DNA of 64,000 bases, from NCBI GenBank assembly GCA_021323635.1, contig JAJPKQ010000004.1, positions 62,001 to 126,000 of the forward strand, given 5' to 3'. Of this stretch, positions 8-40,094 are shown one piece after another. Source of the stretch: a bacterium. GTDB lineage: Bacteria; Actinomycetota; Thermoleophilia; Solirubrobacterales; Solirubrobacteraceae. Below the pieces are notes generated by a model that saw nothing but the letters and a program-made list of their open reading frames with translations, was not told the DNA's origin and searched no databases. The position numbers and the translations under genes are program-made. Every line of letters begins with the position of its first letter. The stretch's first letter is position 1.

Positions 8-466
8 TCAGCGATCGAGCGCAGCCAGCGCGCTTGCAAGCTCATCCACGCCCTGGTAGCGCAAGCCGAGCGTGTGATCGTGGCGATGACGGACGACTCC
101 CTGCTCGTCGACGATCACAACGGCGCGGCGCGTACCGAAGGGGGGCGCGTAGGCCGAGTAGGCGCGCGCGACCTTGCCGTCAATATCGGCCAGCAGCGGC
201 ACGTTCAACCCGTGCCGCTCGTGAAAGCGAAGGTGCGAGTCAAGCGACTGCGATGAGATCCCGACCACGGTCGCCTGCAGCGCTGCAAAATCCTCGGCGC
301 GGTCGCGATACGAGCAGAACTGGCGTGTGCAGACCGGCGTCTCATCGCCCGGGTAGAAAAGCAGCACCACAAGCTCGCCACGGTGCGCCGAGAGGCGAAA
401 GGTCCCCTCGGTGCCCGGGAGCTCGAAATCCGGTGCCGCTTCCCCTACTGCCGGGCGTTTGGCCAT
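8..466 (-). CDS. Peroxiredoxin, PrxQ/BCP type
   Basis: This is a thiol peroxidase of the AhpC/TSA superfamily (152 aa) that would reduce hydroperoxides in the cytosol. The N-terminus carries the 'APDFELP' strand typical of the family. The motif PVCTRQFC places the peroxidatic cysteine at about residue 46 and a second cysteine at 51. A five-residue gap between the two cysteines is the signature of atypical 2-Cys BCP/PrxQ enzymes. The ATG at 466 was chosen because a TATGCT hexamer ends 7 nt upstream and a GGGGGAG stretch abuts it. An in-frame ATG at 478 is possible but would lie inside that hexamer. The gene is divergent from the PQQ-repeat lipoprotein. The family call is secure; the exact electron donor is not visible. 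Confidence 0.9.
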   Translation of the reverse strand: MAKRPAVGEAAPDFELPGTEGTFRLSAHRGELVVLLFYPGDETPVCTRQFCSYRDRAEDFAALQATVVGISSQSLDSHLRFHERHGLNVPLLADIDGKVARAYSAYAPPFGTRRAVVIVDEQGVVRHRHDHTLGLRYQGVDELASALAALDR

Positions 467-473
467 CTCCCCC

Positions 474-479
474 AGCATA
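474..479 (-). promoter_or_regulatory. Candidate -10 element (TATGCT) for the peroxiredoxin
   Basis: The hexamer lies 7 nt upstream of the ATG at 466, consistent with a leaderless or nearly leaderless transcript. It fits the TAnnnT pattern seen before many starts in this window. Confidence 0.4.
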
Positions 480-561
480 GGGATGGCGCTGCTTCGGCGC
501 CCGGCGCCACTGTCTGGGCTTGTTCGCCGGCCACCGCACCGCCGCCGCGCGCGCTGCGAGA

Positions 562-2085
562 ATGTCTGCGATGCGCAGGTTGCGATATCTCCTGCTCGCG
601 TGCGTCCTTGCCATGGGCGCCTGCGGGGCAAGCGGCGGCGCAGGCGCCAGCGGCGCGGCCGCCTCGCGCGGCCGCTCGCTCCAGCGCCTGAGCGCGATCG
701 GCGGCCCCGCCCGCGCCCAGGCAGCGCTGCTCGACTGGAGGGAGTTCGGCCTCAACCCGCAGCGCAGCGACGCCACGGGCGCCTCCCCGGGCATCGATGC
801 AGCTCTGCTCGGCCACCTGCGCGAGCGCACGATCGCGCTGCCCGGGACGGTCGACTCCTCGCCGTTGCTGCTGCACGACGCGGTGGTCGCAGGCAGATCG
901 CTCGCTGCCATATTTGTCACCACCACCTACGGCAAGACGGTTGCCGTCGACGCCGAAAGCGGGCGCATCCTCTGGACCTTCACCCCGGCCGACTACGCCC
1001 GCTACGCCGGCTCCGCGCAGATCACCACGGCAACGCCGCTGATCGGGCCAAGCGGCAGCTACATCTACACCGCCTCGCCGGACGGGCGCATCCACAAGCT
1101 GCGGATATCCGACGGCAGCGAAGTGCGCTCCGGGTCCTGGCCGGTCGCGGTCACGCTCGATCCCACCCACGAGAAGATCGCCTCCGCGCTGGGCGCCGCA
1201 GGCCCCTACCTGATAGTCACCACCGGCGGCTACTACGGCGACGCCCCGCCCTACCAGGGCCACGTCGTCCTGATCGAACGTGCAAGCGGCCGCATCCGCG
1301 CCGTCTTCAACACGCTCTGCTCAAGCCGCCGCCGCCTGATCGCGCCGGCAAGCTGCAGCGCGAGCGACTCCGCGATCTGGTCGCGCGCCGGCGCCGTCGT
1401 CGAGGAAGGCGGCACGCGCCTTCTGGTCGCCACCGGCAACGGGCCCTGGAACGGGCGCAGCGACTTCGGCGACTCCGCGCTCGAGCTCTCCCTGCCGACG
1501 CTCTCGCTGCGCCAGGCCTTCACCCCCGTCGATCAGGCGGCGCTCGACAGCGGCGATCTCGACCTGGGCTCGGGTGGACCGGCGCTGCTCGGCCACGGAG
1601 AGGCGCTGATCGGCGGCAAGGACGGCAAGCTGCGCGTGCTCTCCCTGGCGGCGCTCGACGGTCACCCGCCCGGGGCGCCCGAGCGGCTCGGCGGGGAAGT
1701 CCAGCAGCTGCAGACGCCGGGCGGCGACCAGCTGATCACGGAGCCCTGCGTCTGGCGCCACGGCGCACAGACGACCGTCTTCGTCGCGGATGCCTCCGCC
1801 ACCGCGGCCTATGCCCTGCGCGCCGGGCGCCTGCACAGGCTGTGGGAGAACGCCGCTCCCGGCAGCTCGCCGATCTTCGCGGGCGGCCTGCTCTACGTCT
1901 ATGACCCGGCGGGGGGCGACATCAACGTCTACGCTCCAAGCTCTCCTCGCCCGCTGCGCAAGCTGGCCGGCGAGCCGGGCCACTGGAACAGCCCGATCGT
2001 CGCCGACGGCTACCTCGTGGAGCCGACCGGCGACGCCAACGACCACCGGCTGCACGGAGCGCTCGAGATCTACTCGCTGCGCTAG
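562..2085 (+). CDS. PQQ-repeat (beta-propeller) lipoprotein
   Basis: The product (about 507 aa) starts with a basic n-region, a hydrophobic stretch and a possible lipobox ending in MGAC at about residue 21, so it is probably a lipoprotein on the outer face of the membrane. The mature part shows propeller repeats such as 'VAVDAESGRILWTF' and 'DGRIHKLRISDGSE', typical of PQQ/Pyrrolo-quinoline-like eight-bladed propellers (quinoprotein dehydrogenase or BamB-like folds). No dehydrogenase cofactor site or catalytic Asp could be assigned, so a binding or scaffold role is as likely as an enzyme. The ATG at 562 puts the signal peptide at the very N-terminus; a second ATG at 571 is also possible. It is divergent from the peroxiredoxin. 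Confidence 0.75.
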   Translation: MSAMRRLRYLLLACVLAMGACGASGGAGASGAAASRGRSLQRLSAIGGPARAQAALLDWREFGLNPQRSDATGASPGIDAALLGHLRERTIALPGTVDSSPLLLHDAVVAGRSLAAIFVTTTYGKTVAVDAESGRILWTFTPADYARYAGSAQITTATPLIGPSGSYIYTASPDGRIHKLRISDGSEVRSGSWPVAVTLDPTHEKIASALGAAGPYLIVTTGGYYGDAPPYQGHVVLIERASGRIRAVFNTLCSSRRRLIAPASCSASDSAIWSRAGAVVEEGGTRLLVATGNGPWNGRSDFGDSALELSLPTLSLRQAFTPVDQAALDSGDLDLGSGGPALLGHGEALIGGKDGKLRVLSLAALDGHPPGAPERLGGEVQQLQTPGGDQLITEPCVWRHGAQTTVFVADASATAAYALRAGRLHRLWENAAPGSSPIFAGGLLYVYDPAGGDINVYAPSSPRPLRKLAGEPGHWNSPIVADGYLVEPTGDANDHRLHGALEIYSLR

Positions 2086-33582: not shown

Positions 33583-34372
33583 GCGTGACGCTGCGCCGCT
33601 GATCCTGCTGCGCCACGGCGAGAGCGAGTGGAACGAGCTTGGCCTCTTCACCGGCTGGGTCGACGTCGACCTCTCACGCCGCGGAGAAGAGGAGGCGCGA
33701 CGCGCCGGCGAGCTGATCGCCGGCGCCGGCCTTGAGCCTGCGCTGCTCCACACATCGGTGCTGACACGCGCCATCCGCACCGCCGAGATCGCGCTCGCCG
33801 CCGCCGGGCGCAGCTGGATCCCGGTGCGACGCTCCTGGCGACTCAACGAGCGCCACTACGGCGCCCTGCAGGGCAAGAGCAAGGAGCAGGTGCGTGCCGA
33901 GCATGGCGCGCAGCAGTTCATGCTCTGGCGACGCTCCTACGACGTGCCGCCGCCGCCGCTGCCCGAGGACTCCGAGCTCGCAGCACGTCGTGACGTGCGC
34001 TACCGCGAGCTGCCCGCGGACGCGCTGCCCGCGACCGAGTGTCTCAAGGACGTGCTGGCGCGCGTGCTGCCCTACTGGTATGACGCGATAGCCCGGGACC
34101 TGCGCGCGGGCGCACCGGTGCTCGTCTGCGCCCACGGCAACTCGCTGCGGGCGCTGGTCAAGCACATCGATCGCATCGACGACGAGGAGATCGTCGCGCT
34201 CAACATCCCCACCGGCATCCCGCTCGTCTACGAGCTCGACCACGAGCTGCGCAGCCGCGGCGAGCGCGATCGCCGCTTCGCAGTGAGCGGGCGCTATCTC
34301 GACGCCAAGGCGGCGGCAGAGTCGATCGCAGCCGTTGCCGCGCAGGGCTCGGGGGGGCCTACTCGGCGCTGA
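33575..34372 (+). CDS. gpmA: Phosphoglycerate mutase, 2,3-bisphosphoglycerate-dependent
   Basis: This 265-aa cytosolic glycolytic enzyme interconverts 3- and 2-phosphoglycerate. '[24 protein letters not shown]' contains the phosphorylated His, '[12 protein letters not shown]' and 'YDVPPPPL' are family hallmarks, and '[14 protein letters not shown]' carries the second active-site His. The GTG at 33575 follows GGAGG by about 8-12 nt. A TAGGCT element lies further upstream, with a 20-codon open frame in between. The 3' end overlaps the convergent response regulator by 14 bp. Confidence 0.95.
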
Positions 34373-35018
34373 TCAGGCGCTGGTCGAGGGCGTAGCGCAC
34401 GAGCTCCGAGCGTGTCGAGAGCCGCAGCTTCTGCTGGATGTGGGCGCGGTGGGTCTCGACGGTGCGCACCGAGAGAAAGAGCTTTGCGGCGATCTCCGAG
34501 TTGGTGTGGCCGAGCGCGATCAGGCGCAGCACCTCCACCTCGCGCTCGCTCAGGCCGCCGGGCAGCCCTGAGGCCGGCTCGGAGGCCAGCCGCGCGCCGA
34601 GACGAGGGTTGAGGTAGCGCTCGTTCGCCGCCGCCCTGCGCACGGCATCGATCAGCTCTTCGTCGGCGGCCTCCTTGAGGACATAGCCCAATGCGCCTGC
34701 CGCAAGCGCGCTGCGGGCAAAGGCCGGCTCCTCGTGCATGGTCAGCACCACGATCCGGGTCTGCGGGGAGCGCTCGCGCAGCTGCGGGATCAGATCGATG
34801 CTCGTTCCGTCGGGCATCGTCAGATCGAGGATCAGCACGTCGGGCTGGCGCATCAGCACGTAGCGCCTGGTCTCATCGAGATCGCCGGCCTCGCCGACCA
34901 CCTCGAAGTCGGGCTCGGACTCCAGCAGCATGCGCAGGCCGTGGCGGACGACCACGTGGTCGTCCGCGAGAAGGATCCTGATCGGACCATGCCGCTCTTG
35001 CCGATCGGCAGCTGCCAC
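34359..35018 (-). CDS. NarL/FixJ-family response regulator
   Basis: This 219-aa regulator has an intact receiver domain (acidic pair in 'LLADDH', phospho-acceptor Asp in '[10 protein letters not shown]', Thr in 'VLTMHEE', Lys in 'GYVLKEAA') and a C-terminal LuxR-type HTH ('[35 protein letters not shown]'). It should bind DNA as a phosphorylated dimer. The nearest kinase-like gene, at 37430-38815, has lost its catalytic residues. It is divergent from phosphoketolase, only 20 bp apart, and shares a promoter element with it. The GTG at 35018 lies 9 nt after the shared TAGGCT. Confidence 0.92.
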
Positions 35019-35026
35019 AGCTGCGA

Positions 35027-35033
35027 TAGCCTA
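35027..35033. promoter_or_regulatory. Symmetric bidirectional -10 element between the regulator and phosphoketolase
   Basis: The 7-bp sequence TAGCCTA reads TAGCCT on the + strand (6 nt before the phosphoketolase ATG) and TAGGCT on the - strand (9 nt before the regulator GTG). One element may therefore drive both genes in opposite directions. Confidence 0.5.
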
Positions 35034-35038
35034 CGCCG

Positions 35039-37429
35039 ATGGCAGGCGCCACGTCCTCGCGAGCGTCCCCAGACGCGCCCCTGGGCGCAGCCGAGCTGGG
35101 GCAGCTGCACGCCTGGTGGAGGGCCGCCAACTACCTCTCGGCCGGCCAGATCTACCTGCTTGCAAACGCGCTCCTGCGCGAGCCGCTGGCACCCGAGCAC
35201 ATCAAGCCGCGCTTGCTCGGTCACTGGGGAACGACGCCCGGGCTGAGCTTCATCTATGCGCACCTCACGCGCCTGATCAAGCGCGATCGCTTTGCCGCCA
35301 TCTTTGTGACCGGCCCCGGCCACGGCGGCCCGGCGCTTGTCTCCTGCGCCTACCTGGAGGGCACCTACAGCGAGCGCTACCCGCACATCGGACTGGACGA
35401 GCAGGGCCTGGAGCGCCTGATGCGCCAGTTCTCCTTCCCGGGCGGCATCCCAAGCCACGTGGCGCCGGAGACGCCGGGATCGATTCACGAGGGCGGCGAG
35501 CTCGGCTACTCGCTGGCCCATGCCTACGGCGCAGCGTTCGACAACCCCGAGCTGCTGGTGCTCTGCGTGGTCGGCGACGGCGAGGCGGAAACGGGCCCGC
35601 TCGCGGCCAGCTGGCACTCGAACAAGTTCCTCAACCCGGCGCGCGACGGAGCCGTGCTGCCGGTGCTGCATCTCAACGGCTACAAGATCGCCGCCCCGAC
35701 CGTGCTGGCGCGCATCCCGCCCGCTGAGCTGCGCTCGCTGCTCGAAGGCTACGGCTATGCCCCGCGCTTGCTCTCAGGCTCCGATCCGGCGCGCATGCAC
35801 CAAGAAATGGCGGCCAGCATGGAATGGGCGCTGCGCGAGATCCGCTCCATCCAGGCGCGCGCCCGCGGCGGGCGCCGCGAGCGTCCGCGCTGGCCGCTGA
35901 TCGTGCTCAGCACGCCCAAGGGCTGGACCGGACCCAAGGAAAGCCATGGCCTGCCGATCGAGGGCAGCTTCCGGGCCCACCAGGTCCCGCTAGCAGACCC
36001 GCGCAGCGATCCGGAGGACCTGGCGGCGCTGGAGGCCTGGCTGCGCTCCTACAAGCCTGAGGAGCTCTTCGACCAGGCGGGCTCCCCGCGGGCGGAGATC
36101 AGGGACTTCGCACCCGACGGCGACCTGCGCATGAGCGCAAGCCCGCACGCCAACGGCGGCCTGCTGCTGCGCGACCTCGATCTGCCCGATCCGCGCTCCT
36201 ACGCGGTCGCCGTGCGAAAGCCGGGGTCGACGACCAGCGAAGCGACGCGCGTGCTCGGCTCCTATCTGCGCGACGTGCTCGCCGGCAACCGCGACCGCTT
36301 CCGGGTGATGGGGCCCGACGAGACGGAGTCAAACCGCCTGGGCGCCCTCTTCGAGGCCTCCGGACGCACCTGGGAGGCGGAGCGCCGACCGGGGGACTCC
36401 CATCTTGCGGCGGACGGCCGCGTGATGGAGGTGTTGAGCGAGCATCTCTGCCAGGGCTGGCTGGAGGGCTATCTGCTGACCGGGCGCCACGGCCTCTTCA
36501 ACTGCTACGAGGCCTTCGTGCACATCGTCGACTCGATGTTCAACCAGCACGCCAAGTGGCTGAAGGTCTGCGCAGAGATCCCCTGGCGGGTGGGGATCGC
36601 CTCGCTCAACTACCTGCTCTCCTCGCACGTCTGGCGCCAGGACCACAACGGCTTCTCCCACCAGGACCCGGGCTTCATCGATCATGTCGTCAACAAGAAG
36701 GCGAGCGTCGTGCGCGTCTATCTGCCGCCGGACGCAAACTGCCTGCTTGCCGTGGCAGATCACTGCCTGCGCTCGCGCAACCGCGTGAACGTGATCATCG
36801 CCGGCAAGCAGCCTGCGCTCGACTACCTGGACTTCGAGGCGGCCCAGGCGCACTGCGCGCGCGGCATCGGCGTCTGGGAGTGGGCATGCAGCGATCAGGG
36901 CAGCGAGCCGGACGTCGTGCTCGCCTGCGCGGGTGATGTGCCGACGCTCGAGACGCTTGCGGCAGGCGCGATCCTGCGCCGAGAGCTGCCCGAGCTGCGC
37001 GTGCGCGTGGTCAACGTGGTCGATCTGATGCGCCTGCAGCCGCCTGGCGAGCACCCCCACGGCCTCTCCGATCTGGAGTTCGACGAGCTCTTCACCGCGT
37101 CAAGGCCGGTGATCTTCGCCTACCACGGCTACCCGTGGCTGATCCATCGCCTGACCTACCGGCGCACGAACCACGACAACATCCATGTGCGCGGCTACAA
37201 GGAGGAGGGCACAACCACGACGCCCTTCGACATGGTCATGCTCAACGACCTCGATCGCTTCCACCTGGTGATGGACGTGATCGACCGCGTCCCGGGACTG
37301 GCGCAGCGCGCGCTGCACATCCGCGAGCGGATGGCCGATCAGCGCCTGCGGGCGCGCTCCTACACCCGCGAGCACGGCTGCGACCCGCCCGAGATAGTAG
37401 ACCCGCCGATCGGCGCCGGCGTGAGCTGA
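35039..37429 (+). CDS. xfp: Xylulose-5-phosphate/fructose-6-phosphate phosphoketolase
   Basis: This 796-aa TPP enzyme cleaves xylulose 5-phosphate (and often fructose 6-phosphate) with phosphate to acetyl phosphate plus an aldose phosphate. It shows the family signatures '[17 protein letters not shown]', '[22 protein letters not shown]', the TPP/Mg motif '[11 protein letters not shown]', and '[23 protein letters not shown]'. The length is normal. Its product is the substrate of the acetate kinase encoded 1.5 kb downstream, so the two form a carbon-conserving acetate route with ATP yield. The leaderless-type promoter is shared with the divergent response regulator. Confidence 0.96.
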
Positions 37430-38815
37430 TCAGCGCTGCGCAGGCGCGCTCAGTGCCCACCACGCAAGCGGCAGCTGCAGGCGCAGATCGGCGCCGTCGC
37501 CCTCAAGCCGCCCGCCGAGCAGCTCGATGTTGCCCGACAGGACAGCCAAGCGCTGCGCATCGGGCAGCGCCGGGGCGCCCTCGATGCGCATCTCCACCGC
37601 GCTGCGATCGGGCGTCAGCCCCACCGTGAGCGCCGTGGCGCCCGCTGCAGCTTCGAGCGCCTCCTGGGCGACACGGAAGATCGTCGTCTCGGTCTCGCTG
37701 CCCAGCTCGCCCAGCTCGCCAACGCTCACCGCAAGCGGATGCCCCGGTGCCGTCCCCAGCTGCTCGAGCGCCGGCCGCAGGCCGAGCGCCAGCGAGGCCG
37801 GGCGCAGGCTCGTCGCCAGCGCGCGCAGCGCGTGGATCGTCTCACCGATGTGCTCACGAATCCTCGCCAGGTTCTCAGAGCCGTGCTCGCCGGCGCGGTG
37901 GTCGCCCGCCAGCTCCTGCTCGAAGGAGGCGATCCCGAGCAGCACGGCTGCCAGCATCTGGCTGATGTCCTCGCGCAGCGCTGTTGCGATCTGTGCGCGT
38001 TCTGCCTCACGGCTTGCAACGAGCTCGTGCACGCGCTCGGCGCTGCTTGCAAGGCGGCTGCGCGCCTCGTGCAGCTCGCTGCTCAGATGCGTCCGCTCCG
38101 CCTCCTGCGCAGCGATGCGCGCGCCCTCCAGGCCGTTTGCCGCCTGCAGCGCAAGCAGCTCGAGCGCAAGCGCCGCTTCCGGTCCCGGCGCGCGCGCGAA
38201 GTGCGCTGAGATCAGGCCCACGCGCTCCCCGCGCAGCACGATCGGCGCGCTGATCGACCTGCCGGCGGCGATGCCGGAGGACTCGACACGGCCAAATAGC
38301 TCCACGCGCGCTCCACGCGCGCCGCTCAGCCGACTAGCAGCCCGCGCAAGCTCAGCCAGCGGCGGCCGATCGGGATCGACCCACTTGAGCGCCATGGCGC
38401 TCTCCAGGAGCCCCTGCTGAAGCCGATGCACCGCGCGCATGCGCTCGGCGAAGCGACCCGCGATGAGCCCGACCGCCGCAAATGCGACGCCGCGCGTGAG
38501 GAAGCCGAGCGGCCCGATCTCAACGGCGTGCACGGCAGCCGCGACCGCGATCAGGGCCAGCGCTGCGGCGGCCAGGCCGATCCCGGCGTAGATGCCCAGC
38601 TCCAGCGCCCCAAGGGCGATCGGCACCGTATAGAGCAGCCCGATCGTATCGTCGGTGTCGGTGCTGATGAAGCGCCACGCTGTGATCGCGGCAAAGGCAG
38701 CCAGGGCGCTGGCGACCACGACGCCCCGGCGCTCGAAGAGTCGGCGCGGAAGACCGTCGTCTGATTCGTCCATCCGTGGCACGCGCAACCGCGCGGGATC
38801 GCCCATAGCGATCAT
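37430..38815 (-). CDS. Degenerate sensor histidine kinase (pseudokinase-like)
   Basis: This 461-aa protein has the layout of a NarX/DegS-type sensor: four N-terminal TM helices (about 32-122), a GAF-like region (about 140-230), a coiled coil, a HisKA_3-like helix and an HATPase-like end. The H-box should read like 'RIARELHD', but here it is 'QIATALRED', with Arg 281 (codon CGC) where the phospho-accepting His belongs. The N-box Asn is replaced ('ALEAAAGATA') and no DxGxG loop is visible. A His at 249 ('ELHEAR') lies in the coiled coil and is unlikely to replace it. It is intact in length with no stops, so it may act as a sensor or phosphatase rather than a kinase. Its stop abuts that of phosphoketolase (TGATCA). 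Confidence 0.8.
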   Translation of the reverse strand: MIAMGDPARLRVPRMDESDDGLPRRLFERRGVVVASALAAFAAITAWRFISTDTDDTIGLLYTVPIALGALELGIYAGIGLAAAALALIAVAAAVHAVEIGPLGFLTRGVAFAAVGLIAGRFAERMRAVHRLQQGLLESAMALKWVDPDRPPLAELARAASRLSGARGARVELFGRVESSGIAAGRSISAPIVLRGERVGLISAHFARAPGPEAALALELLALQAANGLEGARIAAQEAERTHLSSELHEARSRLASSAERVHELVASREAERAQIATALREDISQMLAAVLLGIASFEQELAGDHRAGEHGSENLARIREHIGETIHALRALATSLRPASLALGLRPALEQLGTAPGHPLAVSVGELGELGSETETTIFRVAQEALEAAAGATALTVGLTPDRSAVEMRIEGAPALPDAQRLAVLSGNIELLGGRLEGDGADLRLQLPLAWWALSAPAQR

Positions 38816-38921: not shown

Positions 38922-38927
38922 TAGCCT
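38922..38927 (+). promoter_or_regulatory. Candidate -10 element (TAGCCT) for ackA
   Basis: The hexamer sits 12 nt before the ATG at 38940 (3 nt before an in-frame GTG) and its flank (ATAGCCT) matches that before phosphoketolase. Confidence 0.4.
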
Positions 38928-38939
38928 GCGGTGCCCGCC

Positions 38940-40094
38940 ATGCGCGTACTGGTCGCAAACGCAGGCTCCAGCTCGCTCAAGCTGGCGCTGCTCGACGGCC
39001 GGCGGACGCTCGCGAGCTGCACGCTTGCGCAGCCGCAGGCGCCCGTCGTCGATGGTTGCCTGCGACAGCGCGCCGCTGCGGCGGTGGCGGAGATGCTGAC
39101 CCACCAGCCCTCGCCCGAGGCGGTGGGCCATCGCATCGTGCACGGCGGCGGGCGCTTCAGCGAGGCGCTGCTGATCGATCAGAGCTCCCGGCGCAAGCTG
39201 GAGGCGTTGGTTGAGCTGGCGCCGCTGCATCTGCGCCCGGCGCTCGCGGTTGTGGACGCGCTCCGCGAGGCGCTACCGAGTCTGCCCGCGGTGGCCTGCT
39301 TTGACACCGCCTTTCACCGCACGCTGCCCGCGGCAGCAGCCACCTACGCGCTCCCGGAGGGCTGGCGCAAGCTCTACGGCGTTCGCCGCTTTGGCTTCCA
39401 CGGCCTCTCCCACGCCTGGGTTGCGCGCAGCGTGGCGCGGGAGCTGCGTCGCGATGGCGGGCCGGCGGCGCGCATCATCAGCGCCCATCTTGGGGCGGGC
39501 GCCTCGCTCTGCGCGATCGCGCGCGGGCGCTCGCTGGACACGACGATGGGCTTCACGCCGCTGGAGGGGCTCGTGATGGCAACCCGGCCGGGGTCGGTGG
39601 ATCCGGGCGCCATCACCTGGCTGGCGCGCAAGCTGCAGCGCACAGAAGGCCCGCGGCGTGCGCTTGAGACCCTGGAGGGCGCGCTCGAGCACCAATCGGG
39701 GCTGCAGGCGCTCGCCGGCAGCGCGGAGATGTCTACGATCCTCGAGCGCGCCGCCGGCGGCGAGGAGCGCGCGCAGCTTGCCCGCGACGTCTACATCCAC
39801 CGCCTCACCGGAGCGATCGCGCAGATGGCGGCCTCGCTCGGCGGCGTGGACGCGATCGCCTTCACCGGCGGGGTCGGCGAGAACGCGCCGGAGATCCGCG
39901 AGCTGGCGCTGCGGCCGCTCGCCTTCATCGGCGCCGCCCTTGACGAGCGCGCCAACCGGGCGCCGGCGGCCGCGGCTGTGCGCGAGATCGGCGCCCCCGG
40001 TGCCGCCGTGCGGATCTTCGTGGTGCGCGCCCGCGAGGATCTGGAGATCGCCCGGCAGGTGCGAGCGCTGCTTGGCGCCGGAAGACATGGGTAG
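38940..40094 (+). CDS. ackA: Acetate kinase
   Basis: This 384-aa cytosolic enzyme transfers the phosphoryl group between acetyl phosphate and ADP. It carries the family motifs NAGSSSLK, 'VGHRIVHGG', 'ACFDTAFH', 'GFHGLSH', 'HLGAGASLCAI', 'DTTMGFTPLEGLVMATRPGSVDPG' and 'FTGGVGENAPEIR'. The ATG at 38940 gives the usual 'MRVLVANAGSSSLK' beginning. With the phosphoketolase it completes conversion of sugar phosphate to acetate and ATP. No phosphotransacetylase is adjacent. An insertion-sequence relic begins within 20 bp of its stop. Confidence 0.96.
   Translation: MRVLVANAGSSSLKLALLDGRRTLASCTLAQPQAPVVDGCLRQRAAAAVAEMLTHQPSPEAVGHRIVHGGGRFSEALLIDQSSRRKLEALVELAPLHLRPALAVVDALREALPSLPAVACFDTAFHRTLPAAAATYALPEGWRKLYGVRRFGFHGLSHAWVARSVARELRRDGGPAARIISAHLGAGASLCAIARGRSLDTTMGFTPLEGLVMATRPGSVDPGAITWLARKLQRTEGPRRALETLEGALEHQSGLQALAGSAEMSTILERAAGGEERAQLARDVYIHRLTGAIAQMAASLGGVDAIAFTGGVGENAPEIRELALRPLAFIGAALDERANRAPAAAAVREIGAPGAAVRIFVVRAREDLEIARQVRALLGAGRHG

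Follow-up and report, generated by a model that had tools for sequence, protein, structure and literature searches.

The window, meaning the whole 64,000-nucleotide stretch of DNA analysed here, contains two genes that lie back to back with only 20 bp (35019-35038) between their start codons. On the minus strand, a gene for a response regulator of the NarL/LuxR type (34359-35018, 219 amino acids; Response_reg 5.5e-25, GerE 1.8e-19) begins with a GTG at 35018. On the plus strand, a phosphoketolase gene (xfp, 35039-37429, 796 amino acids; XFP_N 4.1e-165, XFP_C 9e-93, XFP 4.1e-88) begins with an ATG at 35039. Inside the spacer stands TAGCCTA (35027-35033), a symmetric core of the form TAGNCTA and a candidate for a -10 region shared by both genes. 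Read on the plus strand, it gives TAGCCT (35027-35032), which ends 6 nt upstream of the phosphoketolase ATG and is the proposed -10 of that gene. Read on the minus strand, it gives TAGGCT (35033-35028), which ends 9 nt upstream of the regulator GTG and is the proposed -10 of the regulator. The two hexamers overlap on opposite strands. A preliminary description of this DNA had reported the element, both hexamers, the distances of 6 and 9 nt and the 20-bp spacer, and all of these are exact to the base when the sequence is read again.

Any claim for a two-way promoter rests on distances, of course, and this is why it matters that both start codons be well fixed. On either strand the element opens with TAG, which is a stop codon in frame with the gene that follows (TAG CCT ACG CCG ATG in one direction, TAG GCT ATC GCA GCT GTG in the other), because 12 and 15 are both multiples of three. 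The receiver domain of the regulator starts at residue 15, so that GTG 35018 is the only usable regulator start seen. For the phosphoketolase, several orthologues align from their first residues. Together, the in-frame stop, the position of the receiver domain and the orthologue alignments fix both starts well.

Neither start is preceded by a Shine-Dalgarno word (no GGAG, AGGA or GAGG lies 4-17 nt before either of them). Leaderless genes in Actinobacteria and Deinococcus-Thermus are described as carrying TANNNT about 12 nt before the start (PMC3160421, PMC12340547), and the genes discussed here resemble them in hexamer, in distance, in their avoidance of Shine-Dalgarno words and in belonging to a high-GC genome. 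At the present locus TANNNT is found on both sides, with its first T at -12 for xfp and at -15 for the regulator. From this geometry, the xfp transcript is predicted to be leaderless, starting at the A of its ATG (35039, plus strand) with the hexamer at -12 to -7, while the regulator transcript is predicted to start at 35021 on the minus strand (it could be anywhere from 35018 to 35022) with a leader of about 3 nt. The two predicted start sites would be 18 bp apart, a figure that comes from geometry only; the class of bidirectional promoters is delimited by divergent transcription start sites 7-25 bp apart. A scan with the sigma-70 consensus returned nothing, and so no -35 match, although such a scan demands a -35 of the TTGACA type and is unsuited to these promoters. 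An operator of the NarL type is a 7-2-7 palindrome; no palindrome of that kind was seen here, and this form of operator was set aside.

Leaderless -10 boxes are normal in this genome. The genome is 2.64 Mb in size (the window has a GC content of 68-73%), and 2,323,024 bases of it (88%) were read. Here, 2003 genes were called by a simple codon-usage script rather than taken from a curated annotation, and the 1993 with 60 nt of upstream sequence were used. The first T of TANNNT stands at -16, -15, -14, -13 and -12 before 38, 53, 66, 68 and 91 of these starts, respectively, against about 6 at other positions; the control words ATNNNT and TTNNNA are flat across the same upstream positions. TANNNT is found in 283 of the 1392 genes that lack a Shine-Dalgarno word, compared with 22 of the 568 that have one. 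Among 316 leaderless hexamers, the commonest are TAGGCT (26) and TAGCCT (24). It is the sharp peak, the avoidance of Shine-Dalgarno words and the rank of these two hexamers that make leaderless boxes the normal state of affairs here. An earlier subset of 143 boxes gave the consensus TAGNCT, whose palindromic completion is TAGNCTA.

The two sides of the element do not, however, score alike. Leaderless boxes in this genome prefer a G two bases before the box and rarely have an A directly after the hexamer (19 of 313). Among leaderless promoters, the 10-mer of the xfp side ranks at the 37th percentile and that of the regulator side, flanks included, only at the 3rd, because of these two preferences. 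This asymmetry bears on a simpler account, in which the promoter runs one way only, serving the phosphoketolase, with A35033 present by chance and the regulator drawing on a promoter that lies within the coding region of xfp. Once one -10 exists in the 18-bp geometry, the other needs only one A, which would arise about 6% of the time (the same 19 of 313), and the regulator-side 10-mer is weak. Against this, the regulator start lacks a Shine-Dalgarno word, and close divergent genes of that description carry TANNNT often: it precedes 41 of the 98 divergent genes whose spacing is under 60 bp, and 39 of the 84 without a Shine-Dalgarno word. Further, TAGGCT is the commonest leaderless hexamer, and the regulator's distance of 9 nt falls within the leaderless peak. 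We therefore regard a promoter serving the phosphoketolase alone as rather unlikely, though it deserves to be taken seriously. The converse, a promoter that serves only the regulator, with the phosphoketolase driven from elsewhere (for example, from inside the regulator gene), can likewise appeal to the rank of TAGGCT. It must then explain why the xfp side has both the better geometry (6 nt is the modal distance) and the better score, and it seems most improbable.

A rough estimate of the odds for the regulator side can be made from these counts. The prior is about 0.46 (39 of 84), and the likelihood is about 0.17 (53 of 316 at -15) against about 0.06, the latter being the chance of an A after the xfp box. 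Together they yield about 0.7, leaving the poor flanks out of account.

The word TAGNCTA is itself rare, with 18 sites in the 2.64-Mb genome, all of them inside the 2.32 Mb read. The preliminary description had proposed counting how often it lies between divergent starts. Seven of the 18 sites lie between divergent called genes, a context that makes up 3.4% of bases (binomial P 1e-6). Six control gapped palindromes (ATGNCAT, AAGNCTT, TTGNCAA, ATCNGAT, AACNGTT and TTCNGAA, with 35-351 sites each) are found there at 4.5-11%, and for scarcer palindromes the counts are 2 of 10 (TACNGTA), 1 of 2 (TAANTTA) and 0 of 3 (TATNATA). A leaderless distance on both sides, however, is found only at the window's own site; among the other 17, three have a called gene at leaderless distance on one side.

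Such a concentration between divergent genes might also be expected of an operator. Here, the short palindrome would bind a regulator acting as a dimer, perhaps the response regulator encoded next to it, instead of serving as a -10 or besides doing so, and the element does adjoin a regulator gene. But this word is also what the genome uses as its general -10 consensus, at a fixed distance from unrelated genes, and the shared cores described below flank mostly enzymes. An operator is accordingly given little credence.

If TAGCCTA is a shared -10, then other divergent pairs in the genome might share theirs. A search of the same 88% of the genome for divergent coding starts no more than 45 bp apart, each preceded by TANNNT at 5-10 nt, yields 17 start pairs at 16 loci, compared with 0-5 for seven control A/T words. 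Bases of the -10 are shared in 10 of the 17 pairs (controls, 0-4), which correspond to about nine distinct loci. Two of the ten have the form TANNNTA, namely the window's pair and one alternative start of a C29 locus, and by geometry their start sites are 18 bp apart. The other eight follow ANNNTANNNT, with TA as the only bases common to the two boxes, and by geometry their start sites are separated by 23 bp. When the box distances are shifted to 11-16 or to 17-22 nt, 5 pairs and 1 pair are found versus 26 at the proper distances (gap of up to 70). An earlier scan, confined to called starts, had given 11 pairs against 0-3 for six control words; the pair in the window was not among them. The proteins encoded at the remaining shared or close sites were scanned, three of them excepted. 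Of these 15, 12 have a Pfam match above cut-off, mostly as enzymes, with no common regulator theme.

One further site in the same genome has a symmetry of its own. The word AGGCTAGCCT, at L127:13718-13742 (C46:253718-253742), is a perfect palindrome that presents TAGCCT on both strands. It lies between two genes 25 bp apart, one for an FAD-linked oxidase and one of the NUDIX type, and TAGCCT stands 6 nt upstream of one start and 9 nt upstream of the other. In the part of the genome read, AGGCTAGCCT has just one other occurrence, and both copies fall between divergent genes.

The recurrence of shared cores was then counted in 101 genomes (the window's own, and others from its genus, family and order). 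Cores were counted between CAT and ATG, that is, with ATG on both sides and no gene required, so that the window's own GTG site is not among them. A start codon was called near at 5-10 nt and far at 15-20 nt. For ANNNTANNNT, both codons are near in 641 cases, one is near in 200 and 218, and both are far in 120. For TANNNTA, the corresponding numbers are 283, then 153 and 147 (mean 150), and 59. Under an additive model, which represents a one-way promoter with a random start codon on the other side and which we prefer by our own choice, the excess of the 23-bp form is 641-120-2x(209-120)=343, with a rough SD of 34. That of the 18-bp form is 283-59-2x(150-59)=42 (Poisson SD roughly 25). If a multiplicative null is used instead, the ratio of observed to expected is 1.76 for the 23-bp core and 0.74, below expectation, for the 18-bp core. 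From these excesses and ratios, a class of leaderless two-way promoters in the order is well supported in its 23-bp form. In the 18-bp form, which is the window's type, it is marginally enriched and only suggested. This marginal excess also speaks for the account in which only the phosphoketolase is served.

The start codons moved out to 15-20 nt, on one side or on both, replaced an earlier control in which the pattern was read backwards (157 versus 283 for TANNNTA; 122 versus 641 for ANNNTANNNT). That control was dropped as the sole comparison because CAT/ATG and GTA/TAC may differ in frequency. Cores that recur among the matches in other genomes were likewise dropped as evidence. The strings had been grouped by similar core, so that the invariance of the core among them is partly built in, and the grouping went by the core rather than by orthology of the flanking genes.

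The locus can also be compared with its counterparts in relatives, although the comparison is weak. The element is absent from the upstream regions of orthologous xfp genes in the genus, and no relative examined has the same 20-bp arrangement. In genus relatives L086, L087, L088, L100 and L107, about 1.1-1.2 kb separate xfp from the regulator upstream of it. In one of these (L086, genome G002), a universal stress protein gene (375-1424, minus strand) separates the same response regulator from the phosphoketolase; the window has no such gene at that place. In L108 (genome G023), the regulator is directly divergent from xfp, with starts about 110 bp apart, and has (read by eye) a TACCTT of its own 7 nt before its ATG. 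From these spacings and gene orders, the 20-bp arrangement seems specific to the window's lineage. In L100 (genome G014), the phosphoketolase gene holds one in-frame TGA, which makes it either a pseudogene or the product of a sequencing error.

Conservation thus lends the element no support, although in the papers on bidirectional promoters cited below retention by selection is a supporting feature and not a defining one. Its absence from relatives is what would be expected if TAGCCTA were a chance word and both genes were transcribed from distant promoters. Chance, however, would have had to place a rare word at two fitting distances, and to make of it two fitting hexamers, and we give it hardly any weight.

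Thus, TAGCCTA is best read as a bidirectional core promoter, a member of the known kind of bidirectional promoter in an unusually compact setting, with an architecture that recurs in this order, chiefly in the 23-bp form. From sequence alone we infer true two-way use with a probability of about 0.58. That TAGCCT is used as the -10 of the phosphoketolase is a good deal safer, and very probable; both gradings are judgements rather than measurements. The preliminary description had proposed one shared -10 working in both directions. In its favour stand the leaderless signature of the genome, the rank of the two hexamers and a real class of pairs that share -10 bases; against it, the marginal status of the 18-bp form, the poor regulator-side 10-mer and the orthologues without the element.

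In the mechanism proposed, RNA polymerase carrying the housekeeping sigma factor would bind TAGCCTA in either orientation. In one, TAGCCT would act as the -10 for the phosphoketolase, whose transcript would begin at or beside its ATG. In the other, TAGGCT would act for the response regulator, whose transcript would begin between 0 and 4 nt upstream of its GTG. Neither message would have more than a very short leader, and neither would need a Shine-Dalgarno sequence. Only one polymerase at a time could occupy the element.

Bidirectional promoters with a shared -10 were reported by Warman et al. (2021, Nat Microbiol), as described in PMC10268837 and PMC12825309. In E. coli, their start sites are most often 18 bp apart, with 10 and 23 bp also common (PMC12825309), and at 18 bp positions -7 and -11 coincide reciprocally (PMC10268837). 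The present locus resembles these in having one short, near-symmetric -10 region, and TAnnnTA is exactly the 18-bp geometry; most other shared sites in this genome, of the form ANNNTANNNT, match the published 23-bp arrangement. It differs from the published promoters in that the start codons stand at or beside the predicted start sites, which reduces the control region to 20 bp. The order also differs from the published E. coli set, where 18 bp is commonest, in that the 23-bp form dominates (641 versus 283). The papers on leaderless genes (PMC3160421, PMC12340547) treat one direction at a time, and the words "divergent" and "bidirectional" have no match in the main text of either. A literature search by titles and abstracts recognised no paper on leaderless bidirectional promoters in bacteria, which is not to claim their absence from print.

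The pairs acrR/acrA and soxR/soxS, like the present one, set a regulator and another gene back to back, on one -10 region that at the present locus is a proposed one (PMC12825309). Those regulators are known to control their pairs, whereas the response regulator here is known as a neighbour of xfp. The preliminary description had gone further, holding that the shared element would tie the dose of the regulator to the phosphoketolase. This finds no support. In E. coli, basal transcription is too low for interference, and when one direction is strongly activated, the opposite one tends to be repressed (PMC12825309). Published bidirectional promoters therefore predict independence or competition rather than a positive tie.

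A broader proposal, to which we would give even odds, is that the locus belongs to an order-wide class in which divergent pairs are run from one two-way leaderless promoter. Here, start codons would stand about 20-29 bp apart as a result of sigma-factor geometry. The two boxes would have TA in common, mostly in the form ANNNTANNNT with a 23-bp spacing of the start sites, and the phosphoketolase-regulator pair would be the rarer TANNNTA case. Mutual exclusion of polymerases at the 20-bp region would make enzyme and regulator compete. If this is true, the locus shows how little DNA can suffice to control two genes, 20 bp with no leader on either side, and annotators would gain a sequence rule for setting divergent start codons in genomes rich in leaderless genes. 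It would also place a regulator and an enzyme of central carbon metabolism on a promoter where, by analogy, activating one should repress the other. More interesting than the single locus is that the arrangement turns up repeatedly across the order, mostly with the 23-bp spacing.

Further along the window, a probable histidine kinase gene (37430-38815, minus strand; its HisKA_3 match is weak and below cut-off) lies between the phosphoketolase and an acetate kinase gene. TAGCCT stands just before the latter as well (within 38922-38942), 3 nt before GTG 38931, the start given in the list of open reading frames, and 12 nt before ATG 38940, the second methionine of the listed frame. In 19 of the 29 loci from relatives (L086-L114), by contrast, the gene that comes after xfp, on its strand, is that for acetate kinase.
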